A stretch of 64,000 bases of DNA, from contig JAURMR010000041.1 in NCBI GenBank assembly GCA_030830565.1, forward strand, positions 1 to 64,000, given 5' to 3'. Source of the DNA: Acidimicrobiales bacterium. GTDB lineage: Bacteria; Actinomycetota; Acidimicrobiia; Acidimicrobiales; Acidimicrobilacustridaceae. Every line of letters begins with the position of its first letter. Position 1 is the stretch's first letter. The position numbers were made by a program, and so were the translations under genes. Shown here one piece after another: positions 6,403 through 28,571 of the stretch. The notes below the pieces were generated by a model. It was not told the DNA's origin, did no database searches, and was given only the letters and a program-made list of their open reading frames with translations.

Positions 6403-6444
6403 GTGAGCACGACGGTCCTTACCTCGCTCGTAGTACTCCGCTAG
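6403..6444 (+). CDS. Putative leader peptide MSTTVLTSLVVLR upstream of ilvB
   Basis: GTG AGC ACG ACG GTC CTT ACC TCG CTC GTA GTA CTC CGC TAG; Val/Leu codons just before stop; followed by hairpins. Confidence 0.75.
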   Translation: MSTTVLTSLVVLR

Positions 6445-6503
6445 CACACGCCGGCCTCGTCCGTCGCGTGTGCGCCCTCGGCCTCCCACTCGGGAGGCCG
6501 TTT
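6444..6503 (+). promoter_or_regulatory. Putative ilvB attenuator: pause hairpin plus terminator hairpin
   Basis: GCACACGC(6444-6451)/GCGTGTGC(6466-6473) and CGGCCTCCC-actc-GGGAGGCCG-TTT (6479-6503). Confidence 0.75.
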
Positions 6504-6564
6504 ACGTTCCGCCCGTTCGAACCGGCCCGATCCCGCTGATGCCTAGGCATCGGGGAGGACAACC

Positions 6565-8295
6565 ATGAAAACCAACGGTGGTGCCGCACTCATCAAGGCT
6601 CTCGAACTCGAGGGCGTCGATGTGATCTTTGGTCTGCCCGGTGGCGCAATCTTGCCGGTGTACGACCCGATCATCGACTCGCCAATTCGTCACATTCTCG
6701 TTCGTCACGAACAGGGTGCAGGGCATATGGCCGAGGGCTATGCCCATGCAACTGGCCGTCCTGGAGTCGCGATGGTGACCAGCGGTCCGGCAGCAACGAA
6801 CATCGTGACGCCGCTCGCCGACGCGTACATGGACTCTGTTCCGATGGTTGTCATCACCGGTCAGGTCGGAACTGCCGGCATCGGAACTGACGCGTTTCAA
6901 GAGGTCGATACGGTCGGCATCACTCGTTCAGTCACGAAGCACAACGAACTGGTCACGAATGCGGCGGACATCCCGCGCATCGTTCGTGAGGCCTTCCACA
7001 TCGCGACCACGGGTCGTCCCGGACCGGTGCTTATCGACATTCCAAAAGACCTCGTCGATCCCACCAACCCCAACTCGGCGCTCGATTGGTATTGGCCGGA
7101 TTCGGTTGATCTCGCTGGGTATCAGCCGCGACTCGATGGTGATCCTGCACTCATCAAAGACGCGGCCCAACTGATCATCGCTGCAGAGCGTCCGGTCATC
7201 TACGCCGGTGGTGGCATCCTCAAGGCGCGCGCTGCTGAATCCCTTCTGGCACTTGCCGAGCTGCTCGACATCCCCGTCGTCACCACGCTCATGGCCCGCG
7301 GTGCGATGCCCGACGATCACCCGTTGTGTCTCGGTATGCCGGGTATGCATGGCAACTACACCGCGGTCACGGCGATGCAGGAATCAGACCTGCTCATTGC
7401 GCTTGGTTCGCGTTTCGACGACCGGGTCACCGGAAAGCTCGATGCATTCGCAGCCAACGCGAAGATCATTCACGTCGACATTGATCCTGCCGAACTTGGC
7501 AAGGTTCGCCGACCAGATGTCGGTATCACTGGAGATTGTCGTCTCGTCATCAATGAACTACTCACTGCGCTCAAACAAATTGGGGCGCCTGAGGTTCAGC
7601 CTGATCGTTCGACATGGAAGTCCACGATCAGTGGTTGGCAGGAGAAGTATCCGCTTGCCTATGTGCAGTCCGAACCTGGCGATTTGTTGAAGCCGCAGTA
7701 TGTGCTTGAACAACTTCGTGACAATACCCCCGACGACTGCATTGTTGCCTCGGGCGTTGGTCAGCATCAGATGTGGACCGCGCAGTACTGGAAGTTCCAG
7801 CACCCCTACACCTGGATCAACTCTGGTGGTCTCGGAACCATGGGCTTTTCTGTTCCGGCGGCAATCGGTGCCAAGGTCGGCCGACCCGATCGCATGGTCT
7901 GGGCCGTCGACGGTGACGGCTGTTTCCAGATGACGGCTCAGGAACTTGTGACTGCAGCAGCCGAACGCATTCCGGTGAAGATCGCGATTCTTAACAACGC
8001 GTATCTCGGAATGGTGCGTCAGTGGCAGGAAATGTTCTACGAAGAGCGATACAGCGAGGTCTACCTCTCACCAGATCTTCCCGATTACAAGATGTGGGCT
8101 GAAGCAATGGGATGTGTTGGCATGCGTGTCGAAGCTCCCGAAGATGTTCTTCCTGCAATTCAGCGTGCGAACGAAGTCGATGACCGTCCTGTCGTCATCG
8201 ACTTCCGCACCGATGCGCGCGAGAAGGTTTTCCCGATGGTGCCCGCAGGCAAGTCCAACTCCGACATCGTTGTCGGACCGGAGGATGTCCGATGA
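6565..8295 (+). CDS. ilvB: Acetolactate synthase large subunit
   Basis: ThDP enzyme motifs GLPGGAILPVYD, HEQGAGHMAEGYA, WAVDGDGCFQMTAQELVTA. Confidence 0.95.
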   Translation: MKTNGGAALIKALELEGVDVIFGLPGGAILPVYDPIIDSPIRHILVRHEQGAGHMAEGYAHATGRPGVAMVTSGPAATNIVTPLADAYMDSVPMVVITGQVGTAGIGTDAFQEVDTVGITRSVTKHNELVTNAADIPRIVREAFHIATTGRPGPVLIDIPKDLVDPTNPNSALDWYWPDSVDLAGYQPRLDGDPALIKDAAQLIIAAERPVIYAGGGILKARAAESLLALAELLDIPVVTTLMARGAMPDDHPLCLGMPGMHGNYTAVTAMQESDLLIALGSRFDDRVTGKLDAFAANAKIIHVDIDPAELGKVRRPDVGITGDCRLVINELLTALKQIGAPEVQPDRSTWKSTISGWQEKYPLAYVQSEPGDLLKPQYVLEQLRDNTPDDCIVASGVGQHQMWTAQYWKFQHPYTWINSGGLGTMGFSVPAAIGAKVGRPDRMVWAVDGDGCFQMTAQELVTAAAERIPVKIAILNNAYLGMVRQWQEMFYEERYSEVYLSPDLPDYKMWAEAMGCVGMRVEAPEDVLPAIQRANEVDDRPVVIDFRTDAREKVFPMVPAGKSNSDIVVGPEDVR

Positions 8296-8780
8296 GTCCA
8301 GCAACTCGTCATCACATCCTTTCTGTCCTTGTCGAAAACAAGCCCGGTGTTCTTGCTCGCGTGTCAGGACTTTTTGCACGTCGAGGCTTCAACATCTTTT
8401 CGCTTGCTGTTGCACCCACCGACGACCCCACTCGTAGTCGCATCACGATCGTGGTCGATGTGGAATCGGCACCGCTTGAACAAATCACCAAGCAGCTCGA
8501 CAAGCTCATCAACGTGCTGCAGATCGATGAACTTGCTCCCATCGATGCGGTGGAACGCGAACTCATGATTGTGACCGTGACCGTGACCGCCGAGTCCAAG
8601 CCCGAACTGCTATCTCTTACGGAGGAATACAGCGGCGTGGTTCTCGACGAAGCCGGCGATCGCATCACTGTGTCTTTGGGCGGCACCCCAGAAGCGCTCG
8701 ATGCCTTCACCGCTCGTATGGGCGCAGCAGTGGTGGCCTATCAGCGCACCGGCCGCATCGCCCTTCCTCGCATCGTTTGA
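8292..8780 (+). CDS. ilvN: Acetolactate synthase small subunit
   Basis: ACT domain: HHILSVLVENKPGVLARVSGLFARRGFNIFSLAV; overlaps ilvB by 4 nt. Confidence 0.95.
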   Translation: MSPATRHHILSVLVENKPGVLARVSGLFARRGFNIFSLAVAPTDDPTRSRITIVVDVESAPLEQITKQLDKLINVLQIDELAPIDAVERELMIVTVTVTAESKPELLSLTEEYSGVVLDEAGDRITVSLGGTPEALDAFTARMGAAVVAYQRTGRIALPRIV

Positions 8781-8887
8781 CCCCTAATTAGTTCCGGGGT
8801 TCTGGCGCTTTTTCGTCCTGAGCCCCTTTCGTCCTACGCTCTTCAGTCCGCCCTGCGGGGCGACCCGATCCCGAAATAGGAGTTCCC

Positions 8888-27917: not shown

Positions 27918-27930
27918 AGTGGTGAAGCCG

Positions 27931-28395
27931 TCAGGCTTCGATGGCGACGATTTCGACCTTGAGGACGCCACCGGGAGCTTCGAAGTCAACGATGTCGCCA
28001 ACTTTGTTGCCCATCAGAGCTACGCCGAGCGGGGAACCGGGGGTGAGGACCTCGAGCTCGCCGCGTTCTTCGACCGAACCGACCAGAAGGCGCTCGACCT
28101 CGTCGTCGCCTTCGTAGCGGATGCTTACGATCACGCCAGCAACCACAGAGGAGCCATCGGCCGCCTCGACAATTTCGGCATCGAGAAGAAGCGCTTCGAG
28201 CTGGCGGATGCGGGCTTCCATCTTGCCTTGCTCCTCTTTGGCGGCGTGGTAGTCGCCATTTTCGGAGAGATCGCCCATTTCACGGGCGGCTTGAATCTTG
28301 CGGGCAATATCGACTCGACCATGGGTGGTGAGCTGCTCATGTTCGGCGCTCAGCCGTTCGTGGGTCTGTTGGGTGAACTGGTGGACGTCGGCCAT
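27931..28395 (-). CDS. greA: Transcription elongation factor GreA
   Basis: Coiled-coil REMGDLSENGDYHAAKEEQGKMEARIRQLE; C-terminal SPLGVALMGNKVGD. Confidence 0.93.
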   Translation of the reverse strand: MADVHQFTQQTHERLSAEHEQLTTHGRVDIARKIQAAREMGDLSENGDYHAAKEEQGKMEARIRQLEALLLDAEIVEAADGSSVVAGVIVSIRYEGDDEVERLLVGSVEERGELEVLTPGSPLGVALMGNKVGDIVDFEAPGGVLKVEIVAIEA

Positions 28396-28467
28396 CTCGC
28401 CAGCGTACAAGGCACCCGTGGAACTCGCCTAGGGCGCCGGAAGGGGGTCGGGCTAGAGTCATGGGCC

Positions 28468-28518
28468 ATGTCCACACCGAGCCCACGCCGTTCACGCTCC
28501 ATCGTGATCATTCGCTAG
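28468..28518 (+). CDS. Putative leader peptide MSTPSPRRSRSIVIIR upstream of leuB-ilvE-cimA
   Basis: ATG TCC ACA CCG AGC CCA CGC CGT TCA CGC TCC ATC GTG ATC ATT CGC TAG; Ile-Val-Ile-Ile run before Arg-stop. Confidence 0.75.
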   Translation: MSTPSPRRSRSIVIIR

Positions 28519-28571
28519 CGCACGCCGAGCCCGGTGTGCGCCCTCGGCCGTCCACCCCGGTGGGCGGCTTT
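28518..28571 (+). promoter_or_regulatory. Putative attenuator of leuB-ilvE-cimA
   Basis: GCGCAC(28518-28523)/GTGCGC(28536-28541); terminator GCCGTCCAC-cccg-GTGGGCGGC-TTT (28547-28571); sequence similar to the ilvB leader. Confidence 0.75.

Follow-up and report, generated by a model that had tools for sequence, protein, structure and literature searches.

In the classical trp, his and leu attenuators of Escherichia coli, stalling of the ribosome on control codons decides the fate of the terminator, and the antiterminator overlaps the terminator 5′ arm. Among Actinobacteria, leader peptides and terminators have been described upstream of ilvB in a 2005 survey that covered other orders than the one studied here and left the ilvB antiterminator open (PMC1262725). 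Replacement of LVVI by AAAA in the Mycobacterium tuberculosis ilvB1 leader abolishes induction, and its authors propose that a ribosome at the stop codon masks the antiterminator (PMC13236596); reporter work also exists for a Corynebacterium leader. The open literature, with subscription papers outside the scope of our search, yielded no report of such attenuation in the class Acidimicrobiia and no cimA or leuB leaders for Actinobacteria. Here we analyze a 64,000-nt stretch of an Acidimicrobiales genome (assembly GCA_030830565.1, contig JAURMR010000041.1, positions 1 to 64,000; hereafter the window), in which ilvBNC, leuA and leuB-ilvE-cimA are each preceded by a short open reading frame (ORF), a hairpin (P1) and an intrinsic terminator.

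We read these three leaders as ribosome-mediated transcription attenuators of one architecture, with a probability of roughly 0.78, in which the ribosome probably signals a shortage of valine, leucine or isoleucine to RNA polymerase. Leader ORFs, their codon bias, a P1 anchored on the stop codon, an abutting terminator, promoter spacing and gene associations, all read from sequence and its comparison, form the basis of this proposal. Attenuation of actinobacterial ilvB, leuA and leuS is already known, and the Acidimicrobiia leaders are a variant with a stop-anchored P1; they would add a deep, mostly uncultured class, as well as isoleucine synthesis by way of citramalate, to the known range of leader-peptide attenuation.

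Like the ilvB attenuators of M. tuberculosis and other Actinobacteria, the ilvB leaders combine a short ORF, L-V-V-[IL] shortly before its stop codon, and an intrinsic terminator (PMC13236596, PMC1262725), and the masking of an antiterminator by a ribosome at the stop codon, as proposed for ilvB1, has its counterpart in the mechanism considered below. The alternative structures of ilvB1 are described as mutually exclusive (PMC13236596), whereas the Acidimicrobiia P1 begins with the final stop-codon base, ends 0–6 nt before the terminator and shares no sequence with it. The Corynebacterium ilvB-II motif likewise has hairpins P1 and P2 (the terminator) and an ORF rich in Ile, Leu and Val codons (PMC10272879), and pairing of its P1 loop with the terminator 3′ arm has been proposed (PMC10272879, PMC11857589), a pairing for which, among the Acidimicrobiia leaders, those of ilvB alone have the complementarity. 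In contrast, the ilvB-II ORF spans most of P1 and each genome has a single copy of the motif, at ilvB (PMC10272879), whereas the Acidimicrobiia ilvB ORF ends where P1 begins and the design is used in two to four operons. The LEU element shares with the leuA leaders the target gene and an ORF with a Leu run; it differs in its stem between Leu codons and Shine-Dalgarno sequence, in its pseudoknot and in having no reported terminator, where the leaders described here have a strong conserved one (PMC1262725). A stem of that kind, joining the Leu run to the leuA Shine-Dalgarno sequence, was tried and rejected, since the mean duplex energy across 25 genomes, in some of which the leuA start is approximate, was −6.9 against −7.8 for shuffled runs.

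Leaders of the three operons

All features lie on the forward strand and are given in window coordinates. The ilvB leader ORF (6403–6444) starts with GTG, encodes MSTTVLTSLVVLR and ends with TAG at 6442–6444; its control codons CTC GTA GTA CTC are followed by the spacer codon CGC. P1 (6444–6473), supported by folding and by covariation of all 8 of its pairs, including the third base of the stop codon, takes the G of TAG as its first paired base. The terminator (CGGCCTCCC ACTC GGGAGGCCG TTT; 6479–6503), supported by folding and covariation, follows 5 nt past P1 and precedes ilvB itself (6565–8295), encoding the acetolactate synthase large subunit (NCBIfam TIGR00118, above cut-off) and followed by ilvN and ilvC. 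In the leuA leader, the ORF MRSFALELLLR (19971–20006; ATG at 19971, TAG at 20004–20006) carries the control codons CTT CTA CTT and the spacer codon CGT; P1 (20006–20031), again starting from the G of TAG, is abutted without any spacer by the terminator (20032–20064), both hairpins being supported by folding and covariation, and leuA, encoding 2-isopropylmalate synthase (TIGR00973, above cut-off), occupies 20127–21710. The leuB leader ORF (28468–28518; ATG at 28468, TAG at 28516–28518) encodes MSTPSPRRSRSIVIIR, with control codons ATC GTG ATC ATT and spacer codon CGC. Its P1 (28518–28541) likewise begins with the G of TAG and shows covariation of all 9 pairs in addition to its predicted fold; its terminator (GCCGTCCACC CC GGTGGGCGGC TTT; 28547–28571; fold and covariation) lies 5 nt further on.

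The operon that follows, leuB-ilvE-cimA (28646–32188), was assigned by matches above cut-off to NCBIfam PRK03437 (LeuB), TIGR01122 (IlvE) and TIGR00977 (CimA, citramalate synthase; 671 bits, cut-off 450), and on these assignments it is the citramalate route to isoleucine. The first-pass annotation of this DNA, made from the sequence alone, had credited all three leaders with a common design, namely branched-chain codons, Arg, TAG and a P1 starting on the G of TAG, and the leaders bear this out, with terminal Arg codons CGC (ilvB), CGT (leuA) and CGC (leuB). The minimum-energy fold contains both P1 and the terminator in each of them, and the segments comprising the two hairpins scored z = −4.1, −6.0 and −4.7 (ilvB, leuA and leuB, respectively) against dinucleotide shuffles, with none of 200 shuffles equaling them.

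The leader ORFs were delimited by sequence and leader parsing, and their promoters were predicted from sequence and from the positions at which the motifs peak in relatives. In most leaders, an xAxxxT motif resembling a −10 element lies 6–10 nt, and TTG 36–39 nt, 5′ of the leader ORF. Initiation some 7 nt past the −10 element would coincide with the start codon; therefore, the leaders are probably leaderless, with transcription predicted to start at the start codon, as has been reported for leader peptides in C. glutamicum (PMC11857589) and Streptomyces lividans (PMC8079986). The predicted ilvB leader promoter (6364–6393) comprises TTGCCG at 6364–6369 and, after 18 nt, AAGACT at 6388–6393, which places the start site at or next to the leader start codon; that of leuA (19936–19964) comprises TTGCAA at 19936–19941 and, after 17 nt, CAGACT at 19959–19964. 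For leuB, a −10 element (TAGAGT, 28454–28459) is predicted 8 nt before the start codon, without a good −35 element.

Stop-codon register and codon content in relatives

Upstream regions of IlvB, LeuA and LeuB matches in 60 relatives, from genus to order level, provided 133 leaders (53 ilvB, 37 leuA and 43 leuB), collected with a parser that demanded a stop codon near P1, so that statistics of the register are favored by construction. The register in this set stands out from chance: P1 begins no more than 1 nt from the final stop-codon base in 49 of 53 ilvB and 38 of 43 leuB leaders, and the spacer between P1 and the terminator measures 0–6 nt in all but two of the 133. The stop codon is TAG in 121/133, compared with 8/51 genes of the window. 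An independent set comprised 79 named ilvB loci, mostly from Acidimicrobiia and Microthrix-like metagenome-assembled genomes (MAGs), in which P1 and the terminator were located without reference to stop codons. A stop codon near P1, together with at least three branched-chain codons among the last five, was present in 65 of these 79; among the 65, P1 began at most one base away from the final stop-codon base in 51, the stop codon was TAG in 50, and its G stood opposite C in 49.

The covariation counts come from model-based alignments, which are biased in favor of the structure; a MAFFT alignment of all ilvB leaders misplaced the P1 3′ arms, and the model was therefore built on a subset. Across P1 and the terminator of 74 ilvB leaders, 98.9% of cells were paired, and the covariation score was 0.348 against 0.130 after shuffling (0/500 shuffles as high). 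Changes on both sides occurred in 15 of 17 pairs, that is, all 8 of P1 and 7 of 9 of the terminator, with 119 double-change cells where shuffles gave 18 (again 0/500). The third stop-codon base took part in a G-C pair in 61 leaders, an A-U pair in 9 and a G-U pair in 3, and was never unpaired. The 56 leuB/cimA leaders gave a similar picture (99.0% paired, 14/18 pairs changed on both sides, 0/500 shuffles), with a stop-base pair that is G-C in 55 and A-U in 1, the latter being the only leader with a stop base other than G. TAG can switch to TGA or TAA with the P1 partner changing in step, and this covariation of the last stop-codon base with its partner in ilvB and leuB/cimA leaders argues that the register is under selection. 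In leuA leaders, 10/21 pairs changed on both sides, P1 begins 0 to 2 bases past the end of the stop codon, whose last base often has no pairing partner. By these comparisons, ilvB and leuB/cimA leaders keep a tight register and leuA leaders a looser one. A stop codon whose third base belongs to a helix, with compensating TAG/TGA/TAA changes, is a very clear marker for finding leaders. Separately, the leuB terminators (28547–28568 in the window, and homologs) keep a U-G stem pair in 43/56 and an almost invariant CCGUCC/GGGCGG, which exceeds what pairing needs.

Each leader carries, in its short ORF, control codons for the product of the regulated pathway, at positions −2 to −5 counted from the stop codon: L-V-V-L in ilvB, L-L-L in leuA and V/I-V/I-I-I in leuB leaders, positions −3 and −4 being the most constrained in ilvB. 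GTA accounts for 68 of 89 Val codons at the control positions of ilvB leaders, whereas it makes up about 5% of Val codons in window genes. The expectation that codon content is fitted to the product was borne out, with Val/Leu for ilvB, Leu for leuA and leuS, and Ile for leuB-ilvE-cimA and cimA. Codon −1 is a spacer, mostly Arg or Thr but also Pro, Asp, Ala, Ile, Ser and others. The suggested invariance of Arg-TAG failed, as Arg occupies −1 in 58 of the 133 order-level leaders, mostly near the genus, and in 3 of the 65 independent ones; with Arg scarce outside near relatives and TAG replaceable by TGA or TAA, Arg-TAG was rejected as a signature.

These data also bear on the idea that the conserved hairpins are recognized by some protein or small molecule and that the ORF is incidental, which we consider very improbable. 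Terminator sequence is indeed kept beyond pairing, as in the leuB U-G pair, but almost every leader has an in-frame ORF that terminates at P1, and the control codons fit the pathway, shift with the downstream gene and use rare codons. An Rfam scan of the leaders, at the gathering cut-off and at E up to 1, matched no riboswitch or leader family.

Possible action of P1 on the terminator

On the attenuator reading, transcription would begin at the start codon of a leader peptide of 10–17 codons, which a ribosome would translate behind RNA polymerase. When Val-, Leu- or Ile-tRNA runs short, the ribosome would stall on the control codons (−5 to −2), leaving P1 free to fold 0–6 nt from the terminator and to oppose it, so that the operon is read. 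When the tRNAs are charged, the ribosome would clear the one spacer codon and park at the stop codon, covering the whole P1 5′ arm; with P1 blocked, the terminator would fold and transcription would end. We infer stalling and the direction of control from the tested Mycobacterium and Corynebacterium ilvB attenuators. More tentatively, P1 may oppose the terminator in ilvB leaders through pairing of its loop with the terminator 3′ arm and, in general, by crowding in the polymerase exit channel, the latter being a step that we infer.

If the ribosome is taken to reach 12 nt past the first base in its A site, the textbook boundary, its arrival at the stop codon covers the P1 5′ arm fully, whereas a stall at −4 or −5 leaves P1 free, one at −3 leaves it nearly free and one at −2 covers about half. 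Since the position of the ribosome decides the exposure of P1, P1 can report whether the peptide has been finished.

Several observations weigh against this mechanism. The footprint arithmetic itself depends on textbook ribosome boundaries, and P1 and the terminator are compatible folds that can coexist. When a ribosome was made to mask the leader at any codon, a nested fold lacking the terminator never won on average, its mean cost being 5.6–17 kcal/mol, and neither nested folding nor arm-complementarity tests revealed a competing-helix antiterminator. The arms of the ilvB P1 pair with the terminator less than expected by chance (z about +6 to +8, with P1 base pairs shuffled), and in leuB no complementarity between P1 and terminator above chance was detected. 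The complementarity between the ilvB loop and the terminator 3′ arm is modest (z −3.1 and −2.3) and confined to ilvB. In the account that PMC1262725 gives of cited work, codon mutations in the Streptomyces coelicolor ilvB leader were without effect. The insulation of P1 and terminator from each other argues against an ordinary competing-helix antiterminator. In contrast to the E. coli trp, his and leu attenuators, whose control-codon logic is alike, no helix overlapping the terminator was found in the Acidimicrobiia leaders.

A rival explanation is the three-hairpin model proposed for C. glutamicum ilvBNC, in which P1 serves as anti-antiterminator and pause hairpin: a stall near its foot opens P1, the freed sequence pairs with the terminator and read-through follows, whereas without a stall P1 re-forms and protects the terminator. 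The model exists together with mutants for C. glutamicum (PMC11857589). Two of our results lean its way, as in nested folding a stall at −2 makes terminator-less folds relatively cheaper than one at −4 (11.5 vs 16.7 kcal/mol in ilvB, 5.6 vs 14.1 kcal/mol in leuB) and the complementarity of the leuA P1 3′ arm to the 5′ half of the terminator slightly exceeds chance (z −2.8). However, it would work only for stalls at −2, whereas the tightest constraint in ilvB falls on codons −3 and −4; complementarity of the P1 arms to the terminator is avoided in ilvB and does not exceed chance in leuB; and a ribosome at the stop codon opens P1 more than a stall does, so that the logic requires fast ribosome release. 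We regard its transfer to the Acidimicrobiia leaders as rather unlikely.

Returning to stop-anchored attenuation, a broader generalization is conceivable, though we hold it to be unlikely: a distinct attenuation mode whose sensing hairpin and terminator never vie for the same bases. Fixed to the stop codon, this hairpin would melt only under a ribosome that completes the peptide and, once folded, would block the terminator by jamming (plus the loop contact in ilvB); its layout would have been reused with new codons for ilvB, leuA, leuS, leuB-ilvE-cimA and cimA throughout Actinomycetota. That P1 is insulated from the terminator raises a testable question about the working of actinobacterial ilvB attenuators, a matter called underexplored in the 2026 work on M. 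tuberculosis (PMC13236596).

Gene associations, origin and spread

Where cimA lies apart from leuB, it is cimA, not leuB, that the Ile leader immediately precedes (G040, G042). Further cimA leaders were found in G078, G107, G127, G066 and G337, Ile-leader loci with a separate cimA include L287, L288, L383, L384 and L387, and two cimA genes outside the class also have Ile leaders (L261, L263). By this distribution, the leader with Ile codons tracks isoleucine synthesis through cimA and not leuB, and leuB operons have Ile codons because they include cimA. An Ile-rich leader is thus a predictor of cimA function. No leader was detectable upstream of leuB-ilvE-cimA in six genomes (G007, G012, G031, G036, G053 and G060).

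The sequence shared by the ilvB and leuB leaders had been taken to suggest duplication. The shared letters are present as described, but CCCTCGGCC, part of the 3′ block, is private to this genome, close relatives carrying CCCCCGGCC in ilvB in its place, and by this comparison the block is a local coincidence. A mimic of the terminator 5′ arm in the P1 loop, claimed for both leaders, stands for ilvB (CGGCCTC vs GAGGCCG); that of leuB is already lost in sister species (loop AGTT) and, judged on this basis, is a local coincidence as well. The idea of one attenuator design in several operons is upheld within the genome itself, where the leuB leader matches the ilvB covariance model with E = 8e-7 and, reciprocally, the ilvB leader matches that of leuB with E = 6e-5, the E-values of these models being rough. 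As compared here, the similarity of the two leaders exceeds chance and resides in the layout and an 8-base arm. Common descent by duplication is possible. Convergence without duplication, an account of origin and not of function, has in our estimate somewhat less than an even chance: a stop-anchored hairpin barred from pairing with a CC/GG-rich terminator would be driven to an alternating GCGCACG, and, with P1 arms selected against such pairing, similar arms could arise independently. The avoidance of the terminator by P1 arms fits this account, as does the different P1 sequence of leuA leaders within the same layout; against it stand the identical register of the GCGCACG arm in both operons across the class, the reciprocal model matches, and a leuA leader from another class (L256) with an ilvB-type P1.

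Leaders of ilvB, leuA and leuB all recur in some 25 families of the order Acidimicrobiales, and the operons begin in this way in hundreds of relatives. A covariance-model search of relatives, which the first-pass annotation had called for, recovered further instances throughout the class and, patchily, across the phylum. The ilvB model matched 166 of 296 sampled class genomes at E ≤ 0.1, and 47 of 296 genomes of a phylum sample at E ≤ 0.001, the latter count being an upper bound, as some of the 47 belong to Acidimicrobiia and the weak matches inspected in other classes were partly false. Genuine leaders elsewhere comprise ilvB L249–L251, L254, L371 and L373–L375, leuA L256, cimA L261 and L263, and leuB L378; the label lineage-specific was therefore too narrow, as other classes of Actinomycetota have matches. 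A Leu leader of leuA type with a stop-adjacent P1 (L385, G357:C27:5596-5676, another class) lies directly upstream of a putative leuS, judged to encode leucyl-tRNA synthetase by reading of the protein. It resembles the Streptomyces leuS attenuators, with a Leu leader and terminator upstream of leuS, leaderless in S. lividans, and, compared by layout, differs from them in its class and its stop-adjacent leuA-type P1 (PMC1262725, PMC8079986). In G027, of the same family as the window genome, a leuA-type leader (L370, G027:C1:43339-43416) precedes a second LeuA-like gene, 26% identical to LeuA, which suggests a second isopropylmalate synthase, or a relative, under leucine control.

No member upstream of trp, his or ilvD genes was found, although no free scan of the window's own genome for attenuators of other amino acids was made. 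A scan of 61 genomes for the pattern TAGCGCAC...GTGCGC gave no recurrent third gene by eye, and the matches outside ilvB and leuB that were checked, at three places, were not leaders. Weak matches in the window's own genome (C36:5543 and C42:6270) were rejected on inspection, as were weak leuB-model matches at seven other places.

Some further loci are recorded as side observations. Most genomes of family f23, genus g43 (small genomes of the same order), are without a detectable ilvB attenuator. A leuB-model match at E = 8e-14 (L253/L388, G391:C11:7736-7811), with codons V-L-L-I-T and TAG, precedes a gene identified by eye as a putative prephenate dehydratase. Two ilvB leaders (L371 and L375, in G350 and G364) have a leuA-like terminator (ACCTCCTACGCC...GGGCAGGAGGT), as if leader types had swapped parts. 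IlvB and leaders of actinobacterial type also occur in MAGs labeled Thermoanaerobacterales, Acidobacteria, Acidobacteriota and Bifidobacterium breve (L157, L159, L223, L224), whose labels are probably wrong or whose bins are mixed.

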